49,891 nt of DNA from Saccoglossus kowalevskii (taxonomy: Eukaryota; Hemichordata; Enteropneusta; Harrimaniidae). The DNA is taken from NCBI RefSeq assembly GCF_000003605.2, contig NW_003156926.1:1-49891 (forward strand), read 5' to 3'. Made by a program: the position numbers and the translations under genes. How positions within the stretch are numbered: the first letter of the stretch is position 1; each line of letters begins with the position of its first letter. Under the pieces are notes generated by a model that was given only the letters and a program-made list of their open reading frames with translations, was not told the origin of the DNA and ran no database searches. Positions 1 through 18,048 of the stretch are shown piece by piece.

Positions 1-131
1 GTTGCAAGTTTGCATTGTCGACCTCTGGATACAGCGTTTGAATCATTACAGAATACGGGATACCGTATTTGTGTTAAGTTGTTTCTGTACACGCAATTCA
101 AACTGTATTGTTCGATTGTTCAATCCTTGAT

Positions 132-135
132 AAAA
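132..135 (-). terminator. Pol III terminator TTTT (copy 1, representative)
   Basis: Four T residues on the minus strand begin 5 nt after the discriminator base, the usual distance for a tRNA gene terminator. The same T4 follows most copies. Confidence 0.8.
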
Positions 136-152
136 TAATTGCCGAAACCCGG

Positions 153-185
153 GACAATTCACCGAACTCGTGGAAGTTCGCCGGG
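153..185 (-). other. 33-nt insertion between T-loop and 3' T-stem strand (copy 1, representative)
   Basis: On the minus strand the bases after TTCAAAC and before CCGGG are an extra 33 nt. The insert begins with CCCGG, and CCCGG recurs where it ends, a short direct repeat at both edges. It contains a hairpin with stem CGAACT and AGTTCG (plus 163..168 and 175..180) and a 6-nt loop. The hairpin is eroded in many copies by changes at its two outer pairs. Normal eukaryotic nuclear tRNA introns sit after position 37, not here. Confidence 0.85.
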
Positions 186-194
186 GTTTGAACC
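184..194 (-). promoter_or_regulatory. Box B internal Pol III promoter (copy 1, representative)
   Basis: Minus-strand GGTTCAAACCC fits GGTTCRANNCC. Its last two bases are the first two bases of the 33-nt insert, so the insertion left box B complete while separating it from the 3' T-stem strand. Confidence 0.8.
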
Positions 195-226
195 AGGGAC
201 CTTTAGATCTTCAGTCTAACGCTCTC

Positions 227-238
227 CCAACTGAGCTA
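227..238 (-). promoter_or_regulatory. Box A internal Pol III promoter (copy 1, representative)
   Basis: Minus-strand TAGCTCAGTTGG matches the box A consensus TRGCNNAGYNGG and spans tRNA positions 8 to 19. It is the binding site for TFIIIC and is kept in nearly all copies; exceptions are noted in the entries. Confidence 0.85.
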
Positions 239-245
239 TTTCGGC

Positions 246-597
246 ATATGAAACTTTTAATCTACCGTAAAATTGAACTTTTTGCTGGAAATAACAAAGA
301 ATTTATGGTTTATAAATGGTTGTACCCTTTTATCCTCGGGTGAATGTGCATTCGTTTCACTTTAAAATCACCCTTTTTGATAAGGCAGGTGAACTTCTGA
401 TAGGGCGTTTCACAGGACAATACACCGGATATGGTATTTCTTTTTCGCAGGTTTGTGTTTGCAAAGTTTGCCATGGTCGAACTCTGGATACTGCGTTTGA
501 ATCAGACAGAATACGGCATACCGTATTTGTGTTAAGTGGTTTCTGTCCACGCAATTCAAACTGTATTGTTCGATTGTTCAATCATTGATAAAATAAT
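246..597. repeat. Spacer haplotype C (representative)
   Basis: 352 bp without a gene. Diagnostic plus-strand features are GGGCGTTTCAC, TTTTTCGCAGG, GCCATGG, the hairpin ATACGG-CATA-CCGTAT and GTGGTTTCTGTCCAC (itself a 4-bp inverted repeat). It is the commonest haplotype. Short ORFs open here on both strands, but I see no reason to call a gene. Confidence 0.8.
565..580. repeat. Tandem 8-mers ATTGTTCG and ATTGTTCA before the terminator (representative)
   Basis: Two adjacent near-identical 8-mers lie just before the gene 3' end. Three units (near 22770, 28466 and 48923) have lost one of them, a typical slippage deletion. Confidence 0.7.
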
Positions 598-703
598 TGC
601 CGAAACCCGGGACAATTCACCGAACTCGTGGAAGTTCACCGGGGTTTGAACCAGGGACCTTTAGATCTTCAGTCTAACGCTCTCCCAACTGAGCTATTTC
701 GGC
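598..703 (-). tRNA. tRNA-Phe(GAA)-like, copy 2
   Basis: Consensus except 638 (G>A on plus), which breaks the outermost pair of the insert hairpin. This variant recurs in 20 copies. Confidence 0.82.
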
Positions 704-765
704 ATATGAAACTTTTAATCTACCGTAAAATTGAACTTTTTGCTGGAAATAACCAAGAATTTATG

Positions 766-775
766 GTTTATAAAC
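766..775. repeat. Perfect palindrome GTTTATAAAC in the 5' flank of the gene (representative)
   Basis: A 10-bp self-complementary, TATA-like element in the flank upstream of copy 2. Haplotypes with GTCTATAAAC lose the palindrome, so it is not universally kept. No promoter role is claimed. Confidence 0.5.
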
Positions 776-799
776 GGTTGTACCTTTTTATCCTCGGGT

Positions 800-811
800 G
801 AATGTGCATTC
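800..811. repeat. Short inverted repeat GAATG-TG-CATTC (representative)
   Basis: A 5-bp inverted repeat with a 2-nt centre, kept in nearly every spacer. A few units have GATTG instead and lose one pair (for example near 14956 and 46405). Confidence 0.5.
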
Positions 812-1055
812 GTTTTACTTTAAAATCACCCTTTTTGATAAGGCAGGTGAACTTCTTATAGGGCGTTTCACAGGACAATACACCGGATATGGTATTTCTT
901 TTTCGCAGGTTTGTGTTTGCAAAGTTTGCCATGGTCGAACTCTGGATACTGCGTTTGAATCAGACAGAATACGGCATACCGTATTTGTGTTAAGTGGTTT
1001 CTGTCCACGCAATTCAAACTGTATTGTTCGATTGTTCAATCATTGATAAAATAAT

Positions 1056-1161
1056 TGCCGAAACCCGGAACAATTCACCGAACTCGTGGAAGTTCGCCGG
1101 GGTTTGAACCAGGGACCTTTAGATCTTCAGTCTAACGCTCTCCCAACTGAGCTATTTCGGC
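1056..1161 (-). tRNA. tRNA-Phe(GAA)-like, copy 3
   Basis: Only change is 1069 (G>A), the insert base that touches the 3' T-stem strand. The tRNA body is consensus. Confidence 0.82.
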
Positions 1162-1514
1162 ATATGAAACTTTTAATCTACCGTAAAATTGAACTTTTTG
1201 CTGGAAATAACCAAGAATTTATGGTTTATAAACGGTTGTACCTTTTTATCCTCGGGTGAATGTGCATTCGTTTTACTTTAAAATCACCCTTTTTGATATG
1301 GCAGGCGAACTTCTGATAGGGCGTTTTAACAGGACAATACACCGGATATGTTATTTCTGTTACGCAGGTTTGCAGTTGCAAAGTTTGCAATGGTCGACCT
1401 CTGGATACAGCGTTTGAATCAGACAGAATACGGGATACCGTATTTGTGTTAAGTTGTTTCTGTACACGCAATTCAAACTGTATTGTTCGATTGTTCAATC
1501 ATTGATAAAATAAT

Positions 1515-1620
1515 TACCGAAACCCGGGACAATGCACCAAACTCGTGGAAGTTCGCCGGGGTTTGAACCAGTGACCTTTAGATCTTCAGTCTAACGCTCT
1601 CCCAACTGAGCTATTTCGGC
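1515..1620 (-). tRNA. tRNA-Phe(GAA)-like, copy 4, weakened stems
   Basis: 1516 changes acceptor position 72, so the G1 pair is lost, and 1572 changes T-stem position 49. Insert variants lie at 1534 and 1539. Confidence 0.72.
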
Positions 1621-1971
1621 ATATGAAACTTTTAATCTACCGAAAAATTGAACTTTTGCAGGAAATAACCAAGAATTTATGGTTTATAAACGGTTGTACC
1701 TTTCAATCCTCGGGTGAATGTGCATTCGTTTTACATTAAAATCACCCTTTTTGATAATGCAGGTGAACTTCTGATAGGGCGTTTCACAGGACAATACACC
1801 GGATATGGTATTTCTTTTTCGCAGGTTTGTGTTTGCAAAGTTTGCCATGGTCGAACTCTGGATACTGCGTTTGAATCAGACAGAATACGGCATACCGTAT
1901 TTGTGTTAAGTGGTTTCTGTCCACGCAATTCAAACTGTATTGTTCGATTGTTCAATCATTGATAAAATAAT

Positions 1972-2077
1972 TGCCGAAACCCGGGACAATTCACCGAACT
2001 CGTGGAAGTTCACCGGGGTTTGAACCAGGGACCTTTAGATCTTCAGTCTAACGCTCTCCCAACTGAGCTATTTCGGC
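1972..2077 (-). tRNA. tRNA-Phe(GAA)-like, copy 5
   Basis: Insert variant at 2012 only; the tRNA body is consensus. Confidence 0.82.
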
Positions 2078-2430
2078 ATATGAAACATTTAATCTACCGT
2101 AAATTTGAACTTTTTGCTGGAAATAACCAAGAATTTATGGTCTATAAACGGTTGTACCTTTTTATCCTCAGGTGAATGTGCATTCGTTTTATTTTAAAAT
2201 CACCCTTTTTGATAAGGCAGGCGAACTTCTGACAGGGCGTTTTCACAGGACAATACACCGGATATGGTATTTCTTTTACGCATGTGTGTTTTTGCAAAGT
2301 TTGCCTTGGTCGAACTCTGGATACAGCGTTTGAATCAGACAGAATACGGGATACCGTATTTGTGTTAAGTTGTTTCTGTACACGCAATTCAAACTGTATT
2401 GTTCGATTGTTCAATCCTTGATAAAATAAT
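2078..2430. repeat. Spacer haplotype A (representative)
   Basis: Diagnostic features are GACAGGGCGTTTTCAC (one T more than haplotype C, shifting any reading frame), TTTTACGCATGTGTG, GCCTTGG, hairpin loop GATA instead of CATA, and TTGTTTCTGTACAC. It also carries the clearest spacer foldback at 2310..2406. Confidence 0.8.
2310..2406. repeat. Imperfect foldback in the spacer (representative)
   Basis: Left arm 2310..2335 and right arm 2387..2406 are inverted complements in three blocks: TCGAAC, ATACAG and TTTGAAT on the left pair with GTTCGA, CTGTAT and ATTCAAA on the right, 19 pairs with two bulges. The 51-nt interval holds a second perfect hairpin, ATACGG-GATA-CCGTAT at 2344..2359. The arrangement recurs in most units, with one mismatch (ATACTG) in haplotype C. 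Confidence 0.75.
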
Positions 2431-2523
2431 TGCCGAAACCCGGGACAATTCACCGAACTCGTGGAAGTTCGCCGGGGTTTGAACCAGGGACCTTTAGATC
2501 TTCAGTCTAACGCTCTCCCAACT
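2431..2523 (-). pseudogene. tRNA-Phe-like copy 6, 5' end deleted
   Basis: 93 nt remain. A 23-nt deletion between two AACT motifs removed the 5' acceptor strand, positions 8 and 9 and the D-stem 5' strand together with most of box A, fusing the D-loop to the 5' flank. Anticodon, box B and terminator remain. The same deletion is in copies 26, 76 and 94. Confidence 0.85.
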
Positions 2524-2865
2524 TTTAATCTACCGTAAAATAGAACTTTTTGCTGGAAATAACAAAGAATTTATGGTTTATAAACGGTTGTACATTTTTA
2601 TCCTCGGGTGAATGTGCATTCGTTTCACTTTAAAATCACCCTTTTTGATAAGGCAGGTGAACTTCTGATAGGGCGTTTCACAGGACAATACACCGGATAT
2701 GGTATTTCTTTTTCGCAGGTTTGTGTTTGCAAAGTTTGCCATGGTCGAACTCTGGATACTGCGTTTGAATCAGACAGAATACGGCATACCGTATTTGTGT
2801 TAAGTGGTTTCTGTCCACGCAATTCAAACTGTATTGTTCGATTGTTCAATCATTCATAAAAACAT

Positions 2866-2971
2866 TGCCGAAACCCGGGACAATGCACCAAACTCGTGGA
2901 AGTTCACCGGGGTTTGAACCAGGGACCTTTAGATCTTCAGTCTAACGCTCTCCCAACTGAGCTATTTCGGC
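2866..2971 (-). tRNA. tRNA-Phe(GAA)-like, copy 7
   Basis: Insert variants at 2885, 2890 and 2906 shorten the insert hairpin to 4 bp. The terminator is T5 rather than T4. Confidence 0.8.
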
Positions 2972-3324
2972 ATATGAAACATTTAATCTACCGTAAAGTT
3001 GAACTTTTTGCTGGAAATAACCAAGAATTTATGGTCTATAAACGGTTGTACCTTTTTATCCTCAGGTGAATGTGCATTCGTTTTATTTTAAAATCACCCT
3101 TTTTGATAAGGCAGGCGAACTTCTGACAGGGCGTTTTCACAGGACATTACACCGGATATGGTATTTCTTTTACGCATGTGTGTTTTTGCAAAGTTTGCCT
3201 TGGTCGAACTCTGGATACAGCGTTTGAATCAGACAGAATACGGGATACCGTATTTGTGTTAAGTTGTTTCTGTACACGCAATTCAAACTGCATTGTTCGA
3301 TTGTTCAATCATTGACAAAATAAT

Positions 3325-3430
3325 TGCCGAAACCCGGGACAATTCACCGAACTCGTGGAAGTTCGCCGGGGTTTGAACCAGGGACCTTTAGATCTTCAGT
3401 CTAACGCTCTCCCAACTGAGCTATTTCGGC
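3325..3430 (-). tRNA. tRNA-Phe(GAA)-like, copy 8
   Basis: Identical to consensus. The flank reads GACAAAAT, which keeps the T4 terminator. Confidence 0.84.
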
Positions 3431-3739
3431 ATATGAAACTTTTAATCTACCGTAAAATTGAACTTTTTGCTGGAAATAACAAAGAATTTATGGTTTATAA
3501 ACGGTTGTACCTTTTTATCCTCGGGTGAATGTGCATTCGTTTTACTTTAAAATCACCCTTTTTGATAAGGCAGGCGAACTTCTGATAGGGCGTTTCACAG
3601 GACAATACACATCATATGGTATTTCTGTTACGCAGGTTTGCAGTTGCAAAGTTTGCAATTGTCGACCTCTGGATACAGCGTTTGAATCAGACAGAATACG
3701 GGATACCGTATTTGTGTTAACTTGTTTCTGTACACGCAA

Positions 3740-3905
3740 TCAAACTGTATTGTTCGATTGTTCAATCATTGATAAATAATTGCCGAACCCGGGACATTCA
3801 CCGAACTCGTGAGTTCGCCGGGGTTTGAACAAGGGACCTTTAGATCTTCAGTTTACGCTCTCCCAACTGAGCTATTTCGGCATATGAAACTTTTAATCTA
3901 CCGTA
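3740..3905. other. Cluster of single-base losses (possible consensus error)
   Basis: Many one-base deletions relative to all other units fall in this short stretch, mostly in A, G or T runs (AATTC to AATC, AAAATA to AAATA, GAAAC to GAAC, ACAATT to ACATT, CTTTTTGC to CTTTTGC). Similar clusters lie at 10290..10370, 22480..22600, 30620..30720, 45680..45735 and 48857..48910. Confidence 0.6.
3781..3881 (-). pseudogene. tRNA-Phe-like copy 9 with five missing bases
   Basis: 101 nt: single bases are lost from the acceptor AAA run, the insert and the anticodon-stem AA, and two from the GGAA of the hairpin loop. It also carries G30>A and a T-stem change (AACAAGG). The terminator is reduced to T3. The losses cluster with others in 3740..3905, so sequencing error is as likely as decay. 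Confidence 0.6.
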
Positions 3906-4232
3906 AAATTGAACTTTTGCTGGAAATAACCAAGAATTCATGGTTTATAAACGGTTGTACCTTTTTATCCTCGGGTGAATGTGCATTCGTTTTACTTTAA
4001 AATCACCCTTTTTGATAAGGCAGGTGAACTTCTGATAGGGCGTTTCACAGGACAATACACCGGATATGGTATTTCTTTTTCGCAGGTTTGTGTTTGCAAA
4101 GTTTGCTATGGTCGAACTCTGGATACTGCGTTTGAATCAGGCAGAATACGGCATACCGTATTTGTGTTAAGTGGTTTCTGTCCACGCAATTCAAACTGTA
4201 TTGTTCGATTGTTCAATCATTGATAAAATAAT

Positions 4233-4338
4233 TGCCGAAACCCGGGACAATTCACCAAACTCGTGAAAGTTCGCCGGGGTTTGAACCAGGGACCTTTAGA
4301 TCTTCAGTCTAACGCTCTCCCAACTGAGCTGTTTCGGC
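4233..4338 (-). tRNA. tRNA-Phe(GAA)-like, copy 10, U8 changed to C
   Basis: 4331 (A>G on plus) changes the nearly universal U8, which is also the first base of box A, to C. Insert variants at 4257 and 4266. Confidence 0.72.
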
Positions 4339-4690
4339 ATATGAAACGTTTAATCTACCGTAAAGTTGAACTTTTTGCTGGAAATAACCAAGAATTTATG
4401 GTCTATAAACGGTTGTACCTTTTTATCCTCAGGTGAATGTGCATTCGTTTTACTTTAAAATCACCCTTTTTGATAAGGCAGGTGAACTTCTGATAGGGCG
4501 TTTCACAGGACAATACACCGGATATGGTATTCCGTTTTCGCAGGTTTGTGTTTGCAAAGTTTGCCATGGTCGAACTCTGGATACTGCGTTTGAATCAGAC
4601 AGAATACGGCATACCGTATTTGTGTTAAGTGGTTTCTGTCCACGCAATTCACACTGTATTGTTCGATTGTTCAATCATTGATAAAATAAT

Positions 4691-4796
4691 TGCCGAAACC
4701 CGGGACAATTCACCAAACTCGTGGAAGTTCGCCGGGGTTTGAACCAGGGACCTTTAGATCTTCAGTATAACGCTCTCCCAACTGAGCTATTTCGGC
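4691..4796 (-). tRNA. tRNA-Phe(GAA)-like, copy 11
   Basis: 4767 changes G30 to U in the anticodon stem, breaking one pair. Insert variant at 4715. Confidence 0.76.
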
Positions 4797-5149
4797 ATAT
4801 GAAACATTTAATCTACCGTAAAGTTGAACTTCTTGCTGGAAATAACCAAGAATTCATGGTTTATAAACGGTTGTACCTTTTTATCCTCGGGTGAATGTGC
4901 ATTCGTTTTACTTTAAAATCACCCTTTTTGATATGGCAGGCGAACTTCTGATAGGGCGTTTTCACAGGACAATACACCGGATATGTTATTTCTGTTACGC
5001 AGGTTTGCAGTTGCAAAGTTTGCAATGGTCGACCTCTGGATACAGCGTTTGAATCAGACAGAATACGGGATACCGTATTTGTGTTAAGTTGTTTCTGTAC
5101 ACGCAATTCAAACTGTATTGTTCGATTGTTCAATCATTGATAAAATAAT
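4797..5149. repeat. Spacer haplotype S (representative)
   Basis: Recognised by CTGTTACGCAGGTTTGCAG, TTTGCAATGG and GTCGACCTC (a SalI-type GTCGAC). Similar units occur at 1162..1514, 31807..32159 and 44043..44395, the last two sharing GAGAGGGCG and TACATCGG. Confidence 0.75.
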
Positions 5150-5255
5150 TGCCGAAACCCGGGACAATTCACCGAATTCGTGGAAGTTCGCCGGGGTTTG
5201 AACCAGGGACCTTTAGATCTTCAGTCTAACGCTCTCCCAACTGAGCTATTTCGGC
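5150..5255 (-). tRNA. tRNA-Phe(GAA)-like, copy 12
   Basis: Only change is 5177 in the insert hairpin stem, which creates GAATTC on the plus strand. Confidence 0.82.
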
Positions 5256-5608
5256 ATATGAAACTTCTAATCTACCGTAAAATTGAACTTTTTGCTGGAA
5301 ATAACCAAGAATTTATGGTTTATAAACGGTTGTACCTTTTTATCCTCAGGTGAATGTGCATTCGTTTTACTTTAAAATCACCCTTTTTGATAAGGCAGGC
5401 GAACTTCTAATAGGGCGTTTCACAGGACAATAACACCGGATATGGTATTTCTTTTACGCATGTTTGCAGTTGCAATGTTTGCATTGGTCGAACTTTATAG
5501 AGAGCGTTTGAATCAGACAGAATACGGGATACCGTATTTGTGTTAAGTTGTTTCTGTACACGCAATTCAAACTGTATTGTTCGATTGTTCAATCATTGAT
5601 AAAATAAT
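5256..5608. repeat. Spacer haplotype E (representative)
   Basis: Marked by GGACAATAACACCGG, TTGCAATGTTTGCATTGG and GAACTTTATAGAGAGCG in place of GAACTCTGGATACAGCG. A sister unit is 46770..47122. The unit at 14400..14752 is a hybrid carrying only the TTTATAGAGAG part. Confidence 0.7.
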
Positions 5609-5714
5609 TGCGGAAACCCGGGACAATTCACCGAACTCGTGGAAGTTCGTCGGGGTTTGAACCATGGACCTTTAGATCTTCAGTCTAACGCTCTCCCAAC
5701 TGAGCTATTTCGGC
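5609..5714 (-). tRNA. tRNA-Phe(GAA)-like, copy 13, stem changes
   Basis: 5612 alters acceptor position 70, 5665 alters T-stem position 50, and 5650 alters the insert. Two canonical pairs are lost. Confidence 0.7.
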
Positions 5715-6067
5715 ATATGAAACATTTAATCTACCGTAAAGTTGAACTTTTTGCTGGAAATAACCAAGAATTTATGGTCTATATACGGTTGTACCTTTTT
5801 ATCCTCAGGTGAATGTGCATTCGTTGTATTTTAAAATCACCCTTTTTGATAAGGCAGGCGAACTTCTGACAGGGCGTTTTCACAGGACAATACACCGGAT
5901 ATGGTATTTCTTTTACGCATGTGTGTTTTTGCAAAGTTTGCCTTGGTCGAACTCTGGATACAGCGTTTGAATCAGACAGAATACGGGATACCGTATTTGT
6001 GTTAAGTTGTTTCTGTACACGCAATTCAAACTGTATTGTTCGATTGTTCAATCATTGACAAAATAAT

Positions 6068-6173
6068 TGCCGAAACCCGGGACAATTCACCGAACTCGTG
6101 GAAGTTAGCCGGGGTTTGAACCAGGGACCTTTAGATCTTCAGTCTAACGCTCTCCCAACTGAGCAATTTCGGC
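6068..6173 (-). tRNA. tRNA-Phe(GAA)-like, copy 14
   Basis: 6165 changes A9 to U inside box A; 6107 changes the insert hairpin stem. Confidence 0.75.
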
Positions 6174-6524
6174 ATATGAAACATTTAATCTACCGTAAAA
6201 TTGAACTTTTTGCTGGAAATAACCAAGAATTTATGGTTTATAAACGGTTGTACCTTTTTATCCTCGGGTGGATGTGCATTCGTTTTACTTTAAAATCACC
6301 CTTTTTGATAAGGCAGGTGAACTTCTGATAGGGCGTTTCACAGGACAATACACCGGATATGGTATTTCTTTTTCGCAGGTTTGTGTTTGCAAAGTTTGCC
6401 ATTGTCGAACTCTGGATACTGCGTTTGAATCAGACAGAATACGGCATACCGTATTTGTGTTAAGTGGTTTCTGTCCACGCAATTCAAACTGTATTGTTCG
6501 ATTGTTCAATCATTCATAAAAAAT

Positions 6525-6630
6525 TGCCGAAACCCGGGACAATGCACCAAACTCGTGGAAGTTCGCCGGGGTTTGAACCAGGGACCTTTAGATCTTCAGT
6601 CTAACGCTCTCCCAACTGAGCTATTTCGGC
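6525..6630 (-). tRNA. tRNA-Phe(GAA)-like, copy 15
   Basis: Insert variants at 6544 and 6549; T6 terminator. Confidence 0.8.
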
Positions 6631-6982
6631 ATATGAAACATTTAATCTACCGTAAAGTTGAACTTTTTGCAGGAAATAACCAAGAATTTATGGTCTATAA
6701 ACGGTTGTACCTTTTTATCCTCAGGTGAATGTGCATTCGTTTTACTTTAAAATCACCCTTTTTGATAAGACAGGTGAACATCTGATAGGGCGTTTCACAG
6801 GACAATACACCGGATATGGTATTTCTTTTTCGCAGGTTTGTGTTTGCAAAGTTTGCCATGGTCGAACTCTGGATACTGCGTTTGAATCAGACAGAATACG
6901 GCATACCGTATTTGTGTTAAGTGGTTTCTGTCCACGCAATTCAAACTGTATTGTTCGATTGTTCAATCATTGATAAAATAAT

Positions 6983-7088
6983 TGCCGAAACCCGGGACAA
7001 TTCACCGAACTCGTGGAAGTTCACCGGGGTTTGAACCAGCGACCTTTAGATCTTCAGTCTAACGCTCTCCCAACTGAGCTATTTCGGC
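6983..7088 (-). tRNA. tRNA-Phe(GAA)-like, copy 16
   Basis: 7040 changes T-stem position 49; insert variant at 7023. Confidence 0.78.
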
Positions 7089-7440
7089 ATATGAAGCATT
7101 TAGTCTACCGTAAAGTTGAACTTTTTGCTGGAAATAACCAAGAATTTATGGTCTATAAACGGTTGTACCTTTTTATCCTCGGGTGAATGTGCATTCGTTT
7201 TATTTTAAAATCACCCTTTTTGATAAGGCAGGTGAACTTCTGATAGGGCGTTTCACAGGACAATACACCGGATATGGTATTCCTTTTTCGCAGGTTTGTG
7301 TTTGCAAAGTTTGCCATGGTCGAACTCTGGATACTGCGTTTGAATCAGACAGAATACGGCATACCGTATTTGTGTTAAGTTGTTTCTGTACACGCAATTC
7401 AAACTGTATTGTTCGATTGCTCAATCATTGATAAAATAAT

Positions 7441-7546
7441 TGCCGAAACCCGGAACAATTCACCGAACTCGTGGAAGTTCGCCGGGGTTTGAACCAGGGA
7501 CCTTTAGATCTTCAGTCTAACGCTCTCCCAACTGAGCTATTTCGGC
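7441..7546 (-). tRNA. tRNA-Phe(GAA)-like, copy 17
   Basis: Only change is 7454, at the insert end. Confidence 0.82.
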
Positions 7547-7896
7547 ATATGAAACTTTTAATCTACCGTAAAATTGAACTTTTGCTGGAAATAACCAAGA
7601 ATTTATGGTTTATAAACGGTGTACCTTTTTATCCTCGGGTGAATGTGCATTCGTTTTACTTTAAAATCACCCTTTTTGATAAGGCAGGTGAACTTCTGAT
7701 AGGGCGTTTCACAGGACAATACACCGGATATGGTATTTCTTTTTCGCAGGTTTGTGTTTGCAAAGTTTGCCATGGTCGAACTCTGGATACTGCGTTTGAA
7801 TCAGACAGAATACGGCATACCGTATTTGTGTTAAGTTGTTTCTATACACGCAATTCAAACTATATAGTTCGATTGTTCAATCATTGATAAAATAAT

Positions 7897-8002
7897 TGCC
7901 GAAACCCGGGACAATTCACCGAACTCGTGGAAGTTCGCCGGGGTTTGAACCAGGGACCTTTAGATCTTCAGTCTAACGCTCTCCCAACTGAGCTATTTCG
8001 GC
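7897..8002 (-). tRNA. tRNA-Phe(GAA)-like, copy 18
   Basis: Identical to consensus. The 5' flank has CATATAAAA in place of CATATGAAA. Confidence 0.84.
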
Positions 8003-8355
8003 ATATAAAACTTTTAATCTACCGTAAAATTGAACTTTTTGCTGGAAATAACAAAGAATTTATGGTTTATAAACGGTTGTACCTTTTTATCCTCAGGTGA
8101 ATGTGCGTTCGTTTTATTTTAAAATCACCCTTTTTGATAAGGCAGGCGAACTTCTGACAGGGCGTTTTCACAGGACAATACACAGGATATGGTATTTCTT
8201 TTACGCATGTGTGTTTTTGCAAAGTTTGCCTTGGTCGAACTCTGGATACAGCGTTTGAATCAGACAGAATACGGGATACCGTATTTGTGTTAAGTTGTTT
8301 CTGTACACGCAATTCAAACTGTATTGTTCGATTGTTCAATCATTGACAAAATAAT

Positions 8356-8461
8356 TGCCGAAACCCGGGACAATTCACCGAACTCGTGGAAGTTCGCCGG
8401 GGTTTGAACCAGGGACCTTTAGATCTTCAGTCTAACGCTCTCCCAACTGAGCTATTTCGGC
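8356..8461 (-). tRNA. tRNA-Phe(GAA)-like, copy 19
   Basis: Identical to consensus; GACAAAAT flank. Confidence 0.84.
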
Positions 8462-8814
8462 ATATGAAACTTTTAATCTACCGTAAAATTGAACTTTTTG
8501 CTGGAAATAACCAAGAATTTATGGTATATAAACGGTTGTACCTTTCCATCCGCAGGTGAATGTGCATTCGTTTTACTTTAAAATCACCCTTTTTGATAAG
8601 GCAGGCGAACTTCTGACAGGGCGTTTTCACAGGACAATACACCGGATATGGTATTTCTTTTACTCATGTGTGTTTTTGCAAAGTTTGCCTTGGTCGAACT
8701 CTGGATACAGCGTTTGAATCAGACAGAATACGGGATACCGTATTTGTGTTAAGTTGTTTCTGTACCCGCAATTCAAACTGTATTGTTCGATTGTTCAATC
8801 CTTGATAAAATAAT

Positions 8815-8920
8815 TGCCGAAACCCGGGACAATTCACCGAACTCGTGGAAGTTCGCCGGGGTTTGAACCAGGGACCTTTAGATCTTCAGTCTAACGCTCT
8901 CCCAACTGAGCTATTTCGGC
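8815..8920 (-). tRNA. tRNA-Phe(GAA)-like, copy 20
   Basis: Identical to consensus. Its spacer shares TTTACTCATG and TGTACCCGC with that of copy 82. Confidence 0.84.
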
Positions 8921-9272
8921 ATATGAAACTTTTAATCTACCGTAAAATTGAACTTTATGCTGGAAATAACCAAGAATTTATGGTTTATAAACGGTTGTAC
9001 CTTTTTATCCTCGGGTGAATGTGCATTCGTTTTACTTTAAAATCACCCTTTTTGATAAGGCAGGTGAACTTCTGATAGGGCGTTTCACAGGACAATACAC
9101 CGGATATGGTATTTCTTTTTCGCAGGTTTGTGTTTGCAAAGTTTGCCATGGTCGAACTCTGGATACTGCGTTTGAATCAGACAGAATACGGCATACCGTA
9201 TTTGTGTTAAGTTGTTTCTATACACGCAATTCAAACTATATAGTTCGATTGTTCAATCATTGATAAAATAAT

Positions 9273-9378
9273 TGCTGAAACCCGGGACAATTCACCGAAC
9301 TCGTGGAAGTTCGCCGGGGTTTGAACCAGGAACCTTTAGATCTTCAGTCTAACGCTCTCCCAACTGAGCTATTTCGGC
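9273..9378 (-). tRNA. tRNA-Phe(GAA)-like, copy 21
   Basis: 9276 changes acceptor G70 to A, breaking the C3 pair; 9331 changes variable-loop position 48. Confidence 0.76.
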
Positions 9379-9731
9379 ATATAAAACTTTTAATCTACCG
9401 TAAAATTGAACTTTTTGCTGGAAATAACAAAGAATTTATGGTTTATAAACGGTTGTACCTTTTTATCCTCGGGTGAATGTGCATTCGTTTTATTTTAAAA
9501 TCACCCTTTTTGATAAGGCAGGCGAACTTCTGACAGGGCGTTTTCACAGGACAATACACAGGATATGGTATTTCTTTTACGCATGTGTGTTTTTGCAAAG
9601 TTTGCCTTGGTCGAACTCTGGATACAGCGTTTGAATCAGACAGAATACGGGATACCGTATTTGTGTTAAGTTGTTTCTGTACACGCAATTCAAACTGTAT
9701 TGTTCGATTGTTCAATCATTGACAAAATAAT

Positions 9732-9837
9732 TGCCGAAACCCGGGACAATTCACCGAACTCGTGGAAGTTCGCCGGGGTTTGAACCAGGGACCTTTAGAT
9801 CTTCAGTCTAACGCTCTCCCAACTGAGCTATTTCGGC
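9732..9837 (-). tRNA. tRNA-Phe(GAA)-like, copy 22
   Basis: Identical to consensus. Confidence 0.84.
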
Positions 9838-10189
9838 ATATGAATCTTTTAATCTACCGTAGAATTGAACTTTTTGCTGGAAATAACCAAGAATTTATGG
9901 TATATAAACGGTTGTACCTTTCTATCCTCGGGTGAATGTGCATTCGTTTTACTTTAAAATCACCCTTTTTGATAAGGCAGGTGAACTTCTGATAGGGCGT
10001 TTCACAGGACAATACACCGGATATGGTATTTCTTTTTCGCAGGTTTGTGTTTGCAAAGTTTGCCATGGTCGAACTCTGGATACTGCGTTTGAATCAGACA
10101 GAATACGGCATACCGTATTTGTGTTAAGTTGTTTCTATACACGCAATTCAAACTATATAGTTCGATTGTTCAATCATTGATAAAATAAT

Positions 10190-10295
10190 TGCCGAAACCC
10201 GGGACAATTCACCGAACTCGTGGAAGTTCGCCGGGGTTTGAACCAGGGACCTTTAGATCTTCAGTCTAACGCTCTCCCAACTGAGCTATTTCGGC
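10190..10295 (-). tRNA. tRNA-Phe(GAA)-like, copy 23
   Basis: Identical to consensus. The 5' flank just outside (10296..10370) shows several single-base gains and losses. Confidence 0.84.
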
Positions 10296-10648
10296 ATATA
10301 AACTTTTAATCTACCCGTAAAATTGAACTTTTTGCTGGAAAATAACAAAGAATTTATGGGTTATAAACGGTTGTACCTTTTTATCCTCGGGTGAATGTGC
10401 ATTCGTTTTACTTTAAAATCACCCTTTTTGATAAGGCAGGCGGACTTCTGATAGGGCGTTTCACAGGACAATACACAGCATATGGTATTTCTGTTACGCA
10501 GGTTTGCAGTTGCAAAGTTTGCAATTGTCGACCTCTGGATACAGCGTTTGAATCATACAGAATACGGGATACCGTATTTGTGTTAACTTGTTTCTGTACA
10601 CGCAAATCAAACTGTATTGTTCGATTGTTCAATCATTGATAAAATAAT

Positions 10649-10755
10649 TGCCGAAACCCGGGACAATTCAACCGAACTCGTGGAAGTTCGCCGGGGTTTG
10701 AACCAGGGACCTTTAGATCTTCAGTTTAACGCTCTCCCAACTGAGCTATTTCGGC
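10649..10755 (-). tRNA. tRNA-Phe(GAA)-like, copy 24, 107 nt
   Basis: One extra A in the insert near 10670, and G30>A at 10726 in the anticodon stem. The G30>A variant recurs in copies 9, 29, 64, 84 and 89. Confidence 0.74.
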
Positions 10756-11108
10756 ATATGAAACATTTAATCTACCGTAAAGTTGAACTTTTTGCTGGAA
10801 ATAACCAAGAATTTATGGTCTATAAACGGTTGTACCTTTTTATGCTCAGGTGAATGTGCATTCGTTTTATTTTAAAATCACCCTTTTTGATAAGGCAGGC
10901 GAACTTCTGACAGGGCGTTTTCACAGGACAATACACCGGATATGGTATTTCTTTTACGCATGTGTGTTTTTACAAAGTTTGCCTTGGTCGAACTCTGGAT
11001 ACAGCGTTTGAATCAGACAGAATACGGGATACCGTATTTGTGTTAAGTTGTTTCTGTACACGCAATTCAAATTGTATTGTTCGATTGTTCAATCATTGAT
11101 AAAATAAT

Positions 11109-11214
11109 TGCCGAAACCCGGGACAATTCACCGAACTCGTCGAAGTTCGCCGGGGTTTGAACCAGGGACCTTTAGATCTTCAGTCTAACGCTCTCCCAAC
11201 TGAGCTATTTCGGC
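11109..11214 (-). tRNA. tRNA-Phe(GAA)-like, copy 25
   Basis: Only change is 11141, in the insert hairpin loop. Confidence 0.82.
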
Positions 11215-11566
11215 ATATGAAACTTTTAATCTACCGTAAAATTGAACTTTTTGCTGGAAATAACAAAGAATTTATGGTTTATAAACGGTTGTACCTTTTT
11301 ATCCTCGGGTGAATGTGCATTCGTTTCACTTTAAAATCACCCTTTTTGATAAGGCAGGTGAACTTCTGATAGGGCGTTTCACAGGACATTACACCGGATA
11401 TGGTATTTCTTTTACGCATGTGTGTTTTTGCAAAGTTTGCCTTGGTCGAACTCTGGATACAGCGTTTGAATCAGACAGAATACGGGATACCGTATTTGTG
11501 TTAAGTTGTTTCTGTACACGCAATTCAAACTGTATTGTTCGATTGTTCAATCATTGACAAAATAAT

Positions 11567-11659
11567 TGCCGAAACCCGGGACAATTCACCGAACTCGTGG
11601 AAGTTCGCCGGGGTTTGAACCAGGGACCTTTAGATCTTCAGTCTAACGCTCTCCCAACT
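11567..11659 (-). pseudogene. tRNA-Phe-like copy 26, 5' end deleted
   Basis: Same 23-nt AACT-to-AACT deletion as copy 6; the rest is consensus. It is followed by copies 27 to 29 in the same order as copies 7 to 9 follow copy 6. Confidence 0.85.
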
Positions 11660-11993
11660 TTTAATCTACCGTAAAATTGAACTTTTTGCTGGAAATAACA
11701 AAGAATTTATGGTTTATAAACGGTTGTACATTTTTATCCTCGGGTGAATGTGCATTCGTTTCACTTTAAAATCACCCTTTTTGATAAGGCAGGTGAACTT
11801 CTGATAGGGCGTTTCACAGGACAATACACCGGATATGGTATTTCTTTTTCGCAGGTTTGTGTTTGCAAAGTTTGCCATGGTCGAACTCTGGATACTGCGT
11901 TTGAATCAGACAGAATACGGCATACCGTATTTGTGTTAAGTGGTTTCTGTCCACGCAATTCAAACTGTATTGTTCGATTGTTCAATCATTCAT

Positions 11994-12000
11994 AAAAAAA
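11994..12000 (-). terminator. Strong Pol III terminator T7 (copy 27, representative)
   Basis: Seven T residues on the minus strand start 2 nt after the discriminator. The same T7 follows copies 33, 59, 60, 65, 77, 87, 91, 92 and 110; related T6 or T5 runs follow copies 7, 15 and 100. Most of these copies share insert variants, so this is a linked haplotype. Confidence 0.8.
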
Positions 12001-12001
12001 T

Positions 12002-12107
12002 TGCCGAAACCCGGGACAATGCACCAAACTCGTGGAAGTTCACCGGGGTTTGAACCAGGGACCTTTAGATCTTCAGTCTAACGCTCTCCCAACTGAGCTA
12101 TTTCGGC
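12002..12107 (-). tRNA. tRNA-Phe(GAA)-like, copy 27
   Basis: Insert variants at 12021, 12026 and 12042; T7 terminator. The canonical tRNA body is consensus. Confidence 0.82.
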
Positions 12108-12460
12108 ATATGAAACATTTAATCTACCGTAAAGTTGAACTTTTTGCTGGAAATAACCAAGAATTTATGGTCTATAAACGGTTGTACCTTTTTATCCTCA
12201 GGTGAATGTGCATTCGTTTTATTTTAAAATCACCCTTTTTGATAAGGCAGGCGAACTTCTGACAGGGCGTTTTCACAGGACATTACACCGGATATGGTAT
12301 TTCTTTTACGCATGTGTGTTTTTGCAAAGTTTGCCTTGGTCGAACTCTGGATACAGCGTTTGAATCAGACAGAATACGGGATACCGTATTTGTGTTAAGT
12401 TGTTTCTGTACACGCAATTCAAACTGTATTGTTCGATTGTTCAATCATTGACAAAATAAT

Positions 12461-12566
12461 TGCCGAAACCCGGGACAATTCACCGAACTCGTGGAAGTTC
12501 GCCGGGGTTTGAACCAGGGACCTTTAGATCTTCAGTCTAACGCTCTCCCAACTGAGCTATTTCGGC
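12461..12566 (-). tRNA. tRNA-Phe(GAA)-like, copy 28
   Basis: Identical to consensus; GACAAAAT flank. Confidence 0.84.
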
Positions 12567-12918
12567 ATATGAAACTTTTAATCTACCGTAAAATTGAACT
12601 TTTTGCTGGAAATAACAAAGAATTTATGGTTTATAAAGGGTTGTACCTTTTTATCCTCGGGTGAATGTGCATTCGTTTTACTTTAAAATCACCCTTTTTG
12701 ATAAGGCAGGCGAACTTCTGATAGGGCGTTTCACAGGACAATACACATCATATGGTATTTCTGTTAAGCAGGTTTGCAGTTGCAAAGTTTGCAATTGTCG
12801 ACCTCTGGATACAGCGTTTGAATCAGACAGAATACGGGATACCGTATTTGTGTTAACTTGTTTCTGTACACGCAAATCAAACTGTATTGTTCGATTGTTC
12901 AATCATTGATAAAATAAT
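12567..12918. repeat. Spacer haplotype S' (representative)
   Basis: An S-like unit with ACACATCATATGG in place of ACACCGGATATGG and TTAACTTGTTTCTG near its end. Close relatives lie at 3431..3780, 37270..37621 and 39499..39850; two more with the same ACATCATATGG start after copies 52 and 53. Confidence 0.7.
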
Positions 12919-13024
12919 TGCCGAAACCCGGGACAATTCACCGAACTCGTGGAAGTTCGCCGGGGTTTGAACCAGGGACCTTTAGATCTTCAGTTTAACG
13001 CTCTCCCAACTGATCTATTTCGGC
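12919..13024 (-). tRNA. tRNA-Phe(GAA)-like, copy 29, damaged D-arm
   Basis: 13014 changes C11 in the D-stem and box A; 12995 is G30>A in the anticodon stem. Confidence 0.7.
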
Positions 13025-13376
13025 ATATGAAACATTTAATCTACCGTAAAGTTGAACTTTTTGCTGGAAATAACCAAGAATTTATGGTCTATAAACGGTT
13101 GTACCTTTTTATCCTCAGGTGAATGTGCATTCGTTTTATTTTAAAATCACCCTTTTTGATAAGGCAGGTGAACTTCTGATAGGGCGTTTCACAGGACAAT
13201 ACACCGGATATGGTATTTCTTTTTCGCAGGTTTGTGTTTGCAAAGTTTGCCATGGTCGAACTCTGGATACTGCGTTTGAATCAGACAGAATACGGCATAC
13301 CGTATTTGTGTTAAGTGGTTTCTGTCCACGCAATTCAAACTGTATTGTTCGATTGTTCAATCATTGATAAAATAAT

Positions 13377-13482
13377 TGCCGAAACCCGGGACAATTCACC
13401 GAACTCGTGGAAGTTCACCGGGGTTTGAACCAGGGACCTTTAGATCTTCAGTCTAACGCTCTCCCAACTGAGCTATTTCGGC
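13377..13482 (-). tRNA. tRNA-Phe(GAA)-like, copy 30
   Basis: Insert variant at 13417 only. Confidence 0.82.
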
Positions 13483-13834
13483 ATATGAAACATTTAATCT
13501 ACCGTAAAGTTGAACTTTTTGCTGGAAATAACCAAGAATTTATGGTTTATAAACGGTTGTACCTTTTTATCCTCGGGTGAATGTGCATTCGTTTTACTTT
13601 AAAATCACCCTTTTTGATAAGGCAGGTGAACTTCTGATAGGGCGTTTCACAGGACAATACACCGGATATGTTATTTCTGTTACGCAGGTTTGCGTTTGCA
13701 AAGTTTGCAATGGTCGAACTCTGGATACAGCGTTTGAATCAGACAGAATACGGGATACCGTATTTGTGTTAAGTTGTTTCTGTACACGCAATTCAAACTG
13801 TATTGTTCGATTGTTCAATCATTGATAAAATAAT

Positions 13835-13939
13835 TGCCGAAACCCGGGACAATTCACCGAACTCGTGGAAGTTCGCCGGGGTTTGAACCAGGACCTTTAG
13901 ATCTTCAGTCTAACGCTCTCCCAACTGAGCTATTTCGGC
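13835..13939 (-). tRNA. tRNA-Phe(GAA)-like, copy 31, 105 nt
   Basis: One G is missing from the GGG near 13891, shortening the variable loop to T-stem junction by one base. Copies 38 and 41 share this loss, and all three are the last gene before a D-type spacer. Confidence 0.76.
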
Positions 13940-14293
13940 ATATGAAAATTTTAATCTACCGTAAAATTGAACTTTTTGCTGGAAATAACCAAGAATTTAT
14001 GGTTTATAAACGGTTGTACCTTTTTATCCTCGGGTGAATGTGCATTCGTTTTACTTTAAAATCACCCTTTTTGATAAGTCAAGCGAACTCCTGATAGGTA
14101 GTTTTCACATGACAATTCACCGGATATGGTATTTCTTTTTCGCAGGTTTGTGTTTGCGAAGTTTGCCATGGTCGATCTCTCGATACAGGCGTTTGAATCA
14201 GACAGAATACGGGATACCGTATTTGTGTTAAGTGGTTTCTGTTCGCGCAATTCAAACTGTATTGTTCGATTGTTCAATCATTGATAAAATAAT
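13940..14293. repeat. Spacer haplotype D, first of three near-identical units
   Basis: Carries a cluster of private changes: GATAAGTCAAGCGAACTCC, GATAGGTAG, CACATGACAATTCACC, TTGCGAAG, GTCGATCTCTCGATAC and TCTGTTCGCGC. The same set occurs at 17130..17483 and 18506..18859 with no differences I could see in the diagnostic part. Confidence 0.8.
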
Positions 14294-14399
14294 TGCCGAA
14301 ACCCGGAACAATTCACCGAACTCGTGGAAGTTCGCCGGGGTTTGAACCAGGGACCTTTAGATCTTCAGTCTAACGCTCTCCCAACTGAGCTATTTCGGC
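14294..14399 (-). tRNA. tRNA-Phe(GAA)-like, copy 32
   Basis: Only change is 14307 at the insert end. It closes a D-type unit. Confidence 0.82.
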
Positions 14400-14752
14400 A
14401 TATGAAACTTCTAATCTACCGTAAAATTGAACTTTTTGCTGGAAATAACCAAGAATTTATGGTTTATAAACGGTTGTACCTTTTTATCCTCGGGTGAATG
14501 TGCATTCGTTTTACTTTAAAATCACCCTTTTTGATATGGCAGGCGAACTTCTGATAGGGCGTTTTCACAGGACAATACACCGGATATGTTATTTCTGTTA
14601 CGCATGTTTGCAGTTGCAAAGTTTGCAATGGTCGAACTTTATAGAGAGCGTTTGAATCAGACAGAATACGGGATACCGTATTTGTGTTAAGTTGTTTCTG
14701 TACACGCAATTCAAACTGTATTGTTCGATTGTTCAATCATTCATAAAAAAAT

Positions 14753-14858
14753 TGCCGAAACCCGGGACAATGCACCAAACTCGTGGAAGTTCGCCGGGGT
14801 TTGAACCAGGGACCTTTAGATCTTCAGTCTAACGCTCTCCCAACTGAGCTATTTCGGC
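14753..14858 (-). tRNA. tRNA-Phe(GAA)-like, copy 33
   Basis: Insert variants at 14772 and 14777; T7 terminator. Confidence 0.82.
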
Positions 14859-15317
14859 ATATGAAACCTTTAATCTACCATAAAATTGAACTTTTTGCTG
14901 GAAATAACCAAGAATTTATGGTTTATAAATGGTTGTACCTTTTTATCCTCGGGTGATTGTGCATTCGTTTTACTTTAAAATCACCCTTTTTGATAAGGCA
15001 GGTGAACTTCTGATAGGGCGTTTCACAGGACAATAACACCGGATAGGGTATTTCTTTTACGCATGTGTGTTTTTGCAAAGTTTGCCTTGGTCGAACTCTG
15101 GATACAGCGTTTGAATCAGACAGAATACGGGATACCGTATTTGTCTTAAGTTGTTTCTGTACACGCAATTCAAACTGTATTGTTCGATTGTTCAATCATT
15201 GATAAAGTAATTGCCGAAACCCGGGACAATTCACCGAACTCGTGGAAGTTCGCCGGGGTTTGAACAAGGGACCTTTAGATCTTCAGTCTAACGCTCTCCC
15301 AACTGAGCTATTTCGGC
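14859..15317. repeat. Unit duplicated at 46311..46769
   Basis: Both units have TACCATAAAATTG, GGGTGATTGTGC, CAATAACACCGGATAGGG and AAATGG. The neighbouring delta spacer lies after this block in one place and before it in the other. Confidence 0.7.
15212..15317 (-). tRNA. tRNA-Phe(GAA)-like, copy 34, terminator lost
   Basis: The flanking A-run is interrupted by G at 15207, leaving only T3 on the minus strand. 15266 changes G52 in the T-stem; this change recurs in copies 35, 37, 40, 95, 97, 99 and 103. Confidence 0.76.
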
Positions 15318-15670
15318 ATATGAAACTTTTAATCTACCGTAAAATTGAACTTTTGGCTGGAAATAATCAAGAATTTATGGTTTATAAACGGTTGTACCTT
15401 TTTATCCGCGGGTGAATGTGCATTCGTTTTACTTTAAAATCACCCTTTTTGATAAGGCAGGTGAACTTCCGACAGGGCGTTTTCACAGGACAATTCACCG
15501 GATATGGTATTTCTTTTTCACATGTGTGTTTTTGCAAAGTTTGCCTTGGTCGAACCATGGATACAGCGTTTGAATCAGACAGAATACGGGATACCGTATT
15601 TGTGTTAAGTTGTTTCTGTACACGCAATTCAAACTGTATTGTTCGATTGTTCAATCATTGATAAAATAAT

Positions 15671-15776
15671 TGCCGAAACCCGGGACAATTCACCGAACTC
15701 GTGGAAGTTCGCCGGGGTTTGAACAAGGGACCTTTAGATCTTCAGTCTAACGCTCTCCCAACTGAGCTATTTCGGC
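15671..15776 (-). tRNA. tRNA-Phe(GAA)-like, copy 35
   Basis: 15725 changes G52 in the T-stem; otherwise consensus. Confidence 0.8.
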
Positions 15777-16106
15777 ATATGAAACATATAATCTACCGTA
15801 AATTTGAACTTTTTGCTGGAAATAACCAAGCATTTATGGTATATAAACGGTTGTACTTTTTTATCCTCGGGTGAATGTGCATTCGTTTTACTTTAAAATC
15901 ACTCTTGATAGGGCGTTTTCACAGGACAATACACCGGATATGGTATTTCTTTTACGCAGGTTTGTAGTTGCAAAATTTGCAATGGTCGACCTCTGGATAA
16001 GGCGTTTGAATCAGACAGAATACGGGATGCCGTATTTGTGTTAAGTGGTTTCTGACCACGCAATTCAAACTGTATTGTTCGATTGTTCAGTCAATGATAA
16101 AATAAT
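15777..16106. repeat. Delta spacer: unit with internal deletion near TCACTCTTGATAGGG
   Basis: About 23 bp are missing between the AAATCACCC and TCTGATAGGG parts of the normal spacer. The unit also has GTAGTTGCAAAATTTGC, CTGGATAAGGCG, a GATG hairpin loop and TCTGACCACGC. Relatives occur at 45875..46204 and 37728..38022; the latter has lost a further stretch so that TTTTAC joins directly to CTCTGGATAAGG. Confidence 0.75.
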
Positions 16107-16212
16107 TGCCGAAACCCGGGACAATTCACCGAACTCGTGGAAGTTCGCCGGGGTTTGAACCAGGGACCTTTAGATCTTCAGTCTAACGCTCTCCCAACTG
16201 AGCTATTTCGGC
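16107..16212 (-). tRNA. tRNA-Phe(GAA)-like, copy 36
   Basis: Identical to consensus. It closes a delta spacer. Confidence 0.84.
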
Positions 16213-16565
16213 ATATGAATCCTTTAATCTACCGTAAAATTGAACTTTTTGCTGGAAATAACCAAGAATTTATGGTTTATAAATGGTTGTACCTTTTTAT
16301 CCTCGGGTGAATGTGCATTCGTTTTACTTTAAAATCACCCTTTTTGATAAGGCAGGTGAACTTCTGATAGGGCGTTTCACAGGACAATAACACCGGATAT
16401 GGTATTTCTTTTACGCATGTGTGTTTTTGCAAAGTTTGCCTTGGTCGAACTCTGGATACAGCGTTTGAATCAGACAGAATACGGGATACCGTATTTGTCT
16501 TAAGTTGTTTCTGTACACGCAATTCAAACTGTATTGTTCGATTGCTCAATCATTGATAAAATAAT

Positions 16566-16671
16566 TGCCGAAACCCGGGACAATTCATCGAACTCGTGGA
16601 AGTTCGCCGGGGTTTGAACAAGGGACCTTTAGATCTTCAGTCTAACGCTCTCCCAACTGAGCTATTTCGGC
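16566..16671 (-). tRNA. tRNA-Phe(GAA)-like, copy 37
   Basis: 16588 lies in the insert and 16620 changes G52. The same pair of changes is in copy 40. Confidence 0.78.
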
Positions 16672-17024
16672 ATATGAAACTTTTAATCTACCGTAAAATT
16701 GAACTTTTGGCTGGAAATAATCAAGAATTTATGGTTTATAAACGGTTGTACCTTTTTATCCTCAGGTGAATGTGCATTCGTTTTATTTTAAAATCACCCT
16801 TTTTGATAAGGCAGGCGAACTTCTGACAGGGCGTTTTCACAGGACAATACACCGGATATGGTATTTCTTTTACGCATGTGTGTTTTTGCAAAGTTTGCCT
16901 TGGTCGAACTCTGGATACAGCGTTTGAATCAGACAGAATACGGGATACCGTATTTGTGTTAAGTTGTTTCTGTACACGCAATTCAAACTGTATTGTTCGA
17001 TTGTTCAATCATTGATAAAATAAT

Positions 17025-17129
17025 TGCCGAAAACCGCTACAATTCACCGAACTCGTGGAAGTTCGCCGGGGTTTGAACCAGGACCTTTAGATCTTCAGTC
17101 TAACGCTCTCCCAACTGAGCTATTTCGGC
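17025..17129 (-). tRNA. tRNA-Phe(GAA)-like, copy 38, 105 nt
   Basis: T-stem 3' strand altered at 17033 and 17037, insert end at 17038, and one G lost near the variable loop as in copy 31. The T-stem is badly weakened. Confidence 0.66.
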
Positions 17130-17483
17130 ATATGAAAATTTTAATCTACCGTAAAATTGAACTTTTTGCTGGAAATAACCAAGAATTTATGGTTTATAAA
17201 CGGTTGTACCTTTTTATCCTCGGGTGAATGTGCATTCGTTTTACTTTAAAATCACCCTTTTTGATAAGTCAAGCGAACTCCTGATAGGTAGTTTTCACAT
17301 GACAATTCACCGGATATGGTATTTCTTTTTCGCAGGTTTGTGTTTGCGAAGTTTGCCATGGTCGATCTCTCGATACAGGCGTTTGAATCAGACAGAATAC
17401 GGGATACCGTATTTGTGTTAAGTGGTTTCTGTTCGCGCAATTCAAACTGTATTGTTCGATTGTTCAATCATTGATAAAATAAT

Positions 17484-17589
17484 TGCCGAAACCCGGAACA
17501 ATTCACCGAACTCGTGGAAGTTCGCCGGGGTTTGAACCAGGGACCTTTAGATCTTCAGTCTAACGCTCTCCCAACTGAGCTATTTCGGC
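17484..17589 (-). tRNA. tRNA-Phe(GAA)-like, copy 39
   Basis: Only change is 17497 at the insert end; closes a D-type unit. Confidence 0.82.
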
Positions 17590-17942
17590 ATATGAAACTT
17601 TTAATCTACCGTAAAATTGAACTTTTTGCTGGAAATAACCAAGAATTTATGGTTTATAAATGGTTGTACCTTTTTATCCTCGGGTGAATGTGCATTCGTT
17701 TTACTTTAAAATCACCCTTTTTGATAAGGCAGGTGAACTTCTGATAGGGCGTTTCACAGGACAATAACACCGGATATGGTATTTCTTTTACGCATGTGTG
17801 TTTTTGCAAAGTTTGCCTTGGTCGAACTCTGGATACAGCGTTTGAATCAGACAGAATACGGGATACCGTATTTGTCTTAAGTTGTTTCTGTACACGCAAT
17901 TCAAACTGTATTGTTCGATTGCTCAATCATTGATAAAATAAT

Positions 17943-18048
17943 TGCCGAAACCCGGGACAATTCATCGAACTCGTGGAAGTTCGCCGGGGTTTGAACAAGG
18001 GACCTTTAGATCTTCAGTCTAACGGTCTCCCAACTGAGCTATTTCGGC
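17943..18048 (-). tRNA. tRNA-Phe(GAA)-like, copy 40
   Basis: 17965 (insert), 17997 (G52) and 18025, which breaks a D-stem pair at G24. Confidence 0.72.

Follow-up and report, generated by a model that had tools for sequence, protein, structure and literature searches.

A tandem array of tRNA-Phe-like genes in Saccoglossus kowalevskii raises the question of whether extra nucleotides within the T loop are an intron removed from the transcript, an additional arm of the finished RNA, or a feature of genes that make no working tRNA. The window analysed here is the entire contig C4641 (1-49891; 49,891 nucleotides), which belongs to an assembly of 572 Mb in 4,830 contigs. Read on the minus strand, positions 140-245 give 106 nt that resemble a tRNA-Phe(GAA) gene, with 33 additional nucleotides in the T loop. 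The commonest form of the unit reads, on the minus strand, GCCGAAATAGCTCAGTTGGGAGAGCGTTAGACTGAAGATCTAAAGGTCCCTGGTTCAA, then the 33-nt ACCCCGGCGAACTTCCACGAGTTCGGTGAATTG and then TCCCGGGTTTCGGCA. The features of the array and of its first complete copy are collected in Table 1.

Table 1. Positions in the window of the tandem array and of the parts of its first complete tRNA-Phe copy
Feature	Position	Strand	Basis
Tandem array with a ~459-bp unit, one insert-bearing tRNA-Phe gene per unit, filling the contig	1..49891	minus	TRF, anchor spacing
Exon 1, tRNA-Phe positions 1-58, anticodon GAA, 3' end GGTTCAA	188..245	minus	Sequence, junction mapping, identical in family-2 consensus
Insert, 33 nt, boundaries A58/T59	155..187	minus	Length count, junction mapping, 35-nt family-2 homologue
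Insert hairpin, 7 bp and 4-nt loop	163..180	minus	MFE, pair conservation between families
Exon 2: T59, C60, T-stem 3' strand, acceptor-stem 3' strand, A73	140..154	minus	Sequence, identical in family-2 consensus
A box TAGCTCAGTTGG, putative internal RNA polymerase III promoter	227..238	minus	Sequence
B box GGTTCAAACCC, putative; last bases come from the insert start	184..194	minus	Sequence
TTTT 3' of the gene, likely polymerase III terminator	132..135	minus	TTTT kept downstream in most copies

The array and its interrupted genes

The array of the window has periods of 458 and 459 and about 109 copies, in stretches 2-37853 and 37907-49891 according to TRF; the 108 anticodon-arm anchors on this contig are most often spaced 459 (n=39) or 458 (n=33) apart. 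The same array, here called family 1, is found also on contigs C544 (82 anchors) and C4721 (22 anchors). Nothing but array was present in the sequence seen of C4641 and C544. At C4721, one array end adjoins approximately 1.1 kb of non-array sequence that by eye resembles part of a short intron-containing gene.

A BLAST search with the 106-mer as query returned 219 matches on these three contigs, of which 213 span the insert. The insert is 33 nt long in 208 of these 213 matches, 34 nt in four and 30 nt in one; in the window itself, 106 of 108 copies carry 33 nt, one carries 34 nt and one 30 nt. None of the 213 spanning matches lacks the insert, and no GGTTCAA joined directly to TCCCGGG turned up when the three contigs were scanned with up to three errors allowed. 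Among the six remaining matches, three end before the insert (two on C4641 and one on C544), two on C544 start just before the insert and contain it, and the last is truncated where its contig ends. The 3' end of the tRNA is retained in 215 of the 219 matches. The presence of a T-loop insert in tandem tRNA-Phe genes is thus confirmed, and the first-pass annotation, which had given the insert as exactly 33 nt wherever the 3' half is kept, was right for 208 of 213 copies and wrong for the five with small indels. Tandem arrays are hard to assemble, and two of the three contigs consist of array alone as far as seen; an assembly or sequencing artefact is nevertheless extremely improbable, given that three contigs together hold 213 copies with the insert, among them variants specific to single copies, and that a diverged homologue exists elsewhere in the genome.

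Two local irregularities were noted in the window. One copy has, in its T-arm region at 30821-30848, a 13-bp unit (TTCACCAGGGACC) that is repeated 2.2 times (TRF). Four copies begin with ACGGTAGATTAAAAGTTGGGAGAG and share a deletion of approximately the first 14 tRNA bases, and therefore represent a sub-family that has spread within the array.

The junction of the insert was mapped to A58/T59, directly after TTCAA and two bases earlier than the position after TTCAAAC that had been proposed from the sequence. This placement leaves TTCAATC-CCGGG, in which TTCAATC is the usual form of the animal T loop. Once the insert is left out, the gene has the anticodon GAA and can form the full cloverleaf of a tRNA-Phe(GAA). 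Like canonical eukaryotic tRNA introns, the insert interrupts a nuclear tRNA gene over a short length; however, it does not lie at 37/38, and the anticodon loop and arm are uninterrupted. It shares with the bulge-helix-bulge ectopic introns of Archaea and C. merolae a location away from 37/38 and the recovery of a tRNA when it is taken out.

More specifically, removal of the 33 nt yields a 73-mer in whose consensus all 21 cloverleaf pairs are possible, and all 21 can form after excision in 123 of the 192 ungapped family-1 copies. The free MFE structure of the spliced 73-mer is a different fold (-23.6 versus -21.9 kcal/mol for the cloverleaf). Both exons match the consensus exactly in 99 of the 192 ungapped copies. 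The B-box core GGTTCRA is present in 175 of these 192 copies across the three contigs, and TTTT occurs no more than 20 nt downstream in 188. Because the start of the insert completes the putative B box, the promoter would be unbroken and transcription need not suffer.

ARAGORN called no tRNA in C4641, C544 or C4721, nor in the copies of the second family (described below) that were given to it; it did call tRNAs in other arrays of this genome. The Rfam tRNA model matches copies in the first 3 kb of the window, with six of seven matches above its threshold.

The second family and the insert hairpin

When the genome was searched for the 5' half of the gene, 237 matches were obtained, 202 on the three contigs of family 1 and 35 elsewhere. 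Among the matches listed, those outside family 1 that were examined lie on C913, C47 and C2456. C913 bears a tandem tRNA-Phe array with a unit of approximately 854 bp, as read in the 10 kb at its two ends, and single copies were seen between. This second family carries a 35-nt insert at the site used by family 1. It is present in each of the 17 copies read that extend to the 3' end, with lengths of 35 nt in ten and 34 nt in two, the other five being partly N; the copy on C2456 is broken off inside the insert. The C913 spacer cannot be aligned with 6 kb of the window array, and the similarity between the families is confined to the tRNA, the insert and about nine bases beyond.

The consensus sequences of the two families are identical at 73 of 73 exon positions and at only 22 of 33 insert positions (11 differ), with two gaps in addition (Fisher p = 7e-7); individual copies of either family do show exon changes. 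The insert is not a chance occurrence, as it is fixed across one array and a diverged homologue occupies the corresponding site of another. The contrast between identical exon consensuses and divergent inserts suggests that the mature tRNA was under selection at a time when the genes already carried the insert.

Within the array, no significant constraint was seen. Among 200 near-normal-length units, diversity is lower in exon 1 (0.021) than in the spacer (0.051), a difference that is not significant (p = 0.24), and neither exon 2 (p = 0.85) nor the insert (p = 0.99) shows significant constraint relative to the spacer in these units. When tRNA was compared with spacer in the Arg, Cys, Thr, Trp and His arrays of the same genome, p fell below 0.05 in only two of six sets, and a within-array diversity test thus says little in arrays of this kind.

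The insert of both families contains a hairpin, CGAACUU-CCAC-GAGUUCG in family 1 and CGGGUUC-GCAC-GAGCCUG in family 2. All seven pairs are standard in both consensuses despite differences at seven of the 14 stem bases, and two of the pairs are changed on both sides. Seven random changes leave the hairpin intact in 1.1% of trials, or in 8.5% when the changed positions are held fixed. A pair-count test on nine hand-chosen rows representing two lineages used five measures, of which three stood out from the shuffles (1 of 500 in each case) and the remaining two failed to do so (82 and 454 of 500). Given that only two lineages are compared, conservation of the hairpin is support rather than proof. 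The hairpin is fully paired in 183 of the 192 ungapped family-1 copies and is part of the MFE fold of family 1. The 106-mer as a whole shows no unusual stability (z -1.48; 13 of 200 shuffles as good), RNAfold favours a CAA:UUG pairing in family 1, and the full cloverleaf is not the free MFE structure in family 1 or in the four family-2 copies tested.

A bulge-helix-bulge at the junctions had also been considered in the first-pass annotation; folds of both families and a count of helices revealed no canonical motif (3 nt / 4 bp / 3 nt). The T-arm bases GUUC (53-56) can pair with GAAU in family 1, or GAAC in family 2, near the 3' junction, a pairing possible in 94% of the cells of this helix. 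By manual count, the helix has about 5 nt next to it on one side and 9-10 by 2-3 nt on the other. It can thus provide the central-helix topology of a relaxed motif, albeit with flanking loops of the wrong size. Because the canonical bulge-helix-bulge is absent, the insert is not classed among ectopic introns of that type.

The source of the insert was sought by comparison with the tRNA, with both strands of the rest of the unit and with the Arg, Cys and His tRNAs, none of which gave significant similarity; the best pairing, TCCACGAGTTCG against spacer, was equalled by 7% of shuffles. The start of the insert gave no matches to viral contigs. The presence of CCCGG on both sides suggests a possible partial duplication of the T arm.

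The family comparison also bears on whether these loci encode a tRNA at all. They might instead specify a regulatory or structural RNA derived from tRNA-Phe, or serve as array DNA that binds TFIIIC at the A and B boxes. Such a role would fit the retention of the B-box core and terminator, as well as the three Rfam alignments shown for the first 3 kb, which take CCCCGG of the insert as the T stem and omit the 3' acceptor strand. However, neither a TFIIIC site nor a non-tRNA RNA would need the acceptor strand, anticodon, T59-C60 and discriminator that are identical in both consensuses, and this explanation is considered very unlikely.

The fate of the insert

Pattern searches of the readable genome sequence found no uninterrupted tRNA-Phe: there were no matches to 44 nt of the 3' part or to 24 nt of the T arm, each with the exons joined and up to three mismatches allowed, or to the uninterrupted-loop pattern CTGAAGATCTNNAGGTCNNNGGTTCRANTCC. 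The loop GGTTCRAT was found 15 times (13 on C913 and once each on C47 and C2456), and the insert follows in all 11 of the matches that were read. A looser form of the joined T arm had 22 exact matches; those inspected (5/20 loci examined, covering all four contigs and both matched strings) are tRNA-His genes and were set aside. Some stretches of the genome read N, including stretches inside family-2 copies, and an uninterrupted gene could sit there.

Such hidden genes are the premise of an alternative in which an interrupted gene was amplified into a satellite of tRNA-Phe pseudogenes, the arrays making no working tRNA and ordinary genes lying in the N or missing sequence. Amplification is evidently common in this genome, as shown by large arrays of single isoacceptors, some with variant copies (Cys); the exons deviate from consensus in 93 of the 192 ungapped copies; and eukaryotic tRNA genes with a short insert in the T arm are, according to one published account, usually regarded as pseudogenes (PMC4090602). 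The decayed 3' half expected of a pseudogene or a tRNA-derived SINE was not observed, since 215 of 219 matches keep the 3' end and the exon consensuses agree at 73/73, although constraint within the array is not significant. Exon identity in the face of inserts that differ by a third and spacers that cannot be aligned would require selection on the insert-bearing copies themselves, and the hairpin pairs are likewise conserved. Furthermore, a large uninterrupted array should have left mutated but readable copies, and pattern searches of the readable sequence showed none among the matches examined. A pseudogene satellite is thus judged unlikely, while carrying more weight than any of the other alternatives.

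The interpretation preferred here, with a probability of roughly one half, is that the arrays consist of working nuclear animal tRNA-Phe(GAA) genes with an ectopic intron of 33 or 35 nt at 58/59, because conserved exons flank an insert that changes faster and keeps its hairpin. RNA polymerase III would transcribe the unit from the internal A and B boxes and terminate at the run of Ts. The T stem of the precursor would close around the insert, itself folded into the 7-bp hairpin. Excision and ligation, by enzymes whose involvement is presumed, would then give a 73-nt tRNA-Phe with the ordinary T loop TTCAATC.

Alternatively, the insert may stay in place as a hairpin on the T loop at 58/59, forming a five-arm tRNA of 106 to 108 nt that is charged and used. 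The conserved hairpin and the lack of a canonical bulge-helix-bulge are compatible with retention, and an extension at T-loop residues 59/60 is conceivable, these residues being ones that bulge outward in tRNA. However, GAA of the insert can pair with T54-T55-C56, which would disturb the contacts between the D loop and the T loop, and in exon 2 the T stem, T59 and C60 are retained in the form that they have in tRNAs lacking an insert. We know of no precedent for such a molecule, and it is regarded as distinctly improbable. The choice originally posed, between a T-loop intron and a five-arm RNA of 106 nt, was a reasonable one, and the intron side of it has since gained from the second family, the kept hairpin and the searches that found no uninterrupted gene in the readable sequence.

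A more far-reaching proposal is that genes bearing an ectopic T-loop intron are the sole source of tRNA-Phe in this animal; that the tRNA splicing machinery, or another nuclease-ligase pair, removes an intron at a site regarded as out of reach of the animal enzyme; and that the intron is old, having diverged between two families with its fold kept. This proposal is advanced tentatively, as having somewhat less than an even chance. To our knowledge, the introns of animal tRNA genes sit at 37/38. Among the titles and openings of abstracts listed in searches of open-licence literature, none described an animal nuclear tRNA with an intron in the T arm. A T-loop intron spliced from an essential animal isoacceptor would, if true, contradict the 37/38 rule and the notion of an endonuclease that measures from the body of the tRNA, and would point to a class of genes missed by a standard tRNA finder such as ARAGORN. 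Were the insert retained, the result would be equally odd, namely a tRNA with a fifth arm at its elbow. Counting against an intron, the eukaryotic splicing endonuclease is described as probably measuring from the tRNA body (PMC4090602).

Several known systems resemble the present one in part. T-arm introns of nuclear tRNA genes in Cyanidioschyzon merolae are reported to be removed to give mature tRNA (PMC9602550), and there too a nuclear tRNA gene that is complete in other respects carries its insert in the T arm. The red algal case described in that source concerns 53/54 of tRNA-Ile(UAU) and hBHBh' motifs, whereas the insert here is at 58/59 of tRNA-Phe, lacks a canonical motif and occurs in hundreds of tandem copies in an animal. 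In the nucleomorph of Guillardia theta, T-arm tRNA introns, many without a defined BHB, have been described (PMC3978253), and their excision has been reported (PMC4090602); these introns are 3-24 nt long and reside in algal remnant genomes, in contrast to the 33-35 nt and kept hairpin found in a 572-Mb animal assembly. Non-canonical archaeal tRNA introns include some at position 59/60, nearly the same place in the tRNA as here (PMC4090602), but archaeal introns possess a BHB motif and are served by an archaeal endonuclease, and the present insert has no canonical BHB. With regard to arrangement, the tandem tRNA arrays of Entamoeba have units with up to five tRNA genes (PMC2652664) and a human tandem repeat of tRNA genes at 1q23.3 has a 7.3-kb unit (PMC4041453), as opposed to a single interrupted gene per 459-bp unit in this array.

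Other tRNA arrays and the mitochondrial contig

Several isoacceptors of this animal are encoded in separate arrays. On C237, C3006 and C1937, tRNA-Arg(TCG) genes, mostly for ordinary tRNAs, form tandem arrays with a unit of approximately 565 bp. Those of tRNA-Cys(GCA), on C926, C682 and C4368, have a 237-bp unit and intermixed gene variants, one of which is two bases shorter before the anticodon stem. tRNA-Thr(TGT) and tRNA-Trp(CCA) form tandem arrays on C4103 and C4826, respectively. The tRNA-His loci noted above (five of 20 examined) lie in tandem arrays on C1317, C2137, C2500 and C3441 that mix copies with GTG and ATG anticodons; ATG would be an unusual anticodon for tRNA-His.

The description of the gene as that of a probable animal is supported by a contig with a COX1 frame containing in-frame TGA and by the genetic code read from it. 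This contig, C4830, is probably mitochondrial, and its COX1 lies on the strand opposite to frames that by eye resemble ND1 and COX2. In these frames TGA is read as Trp, and AAA occurs at a position of ND1 that we take to be a conserved Lys.
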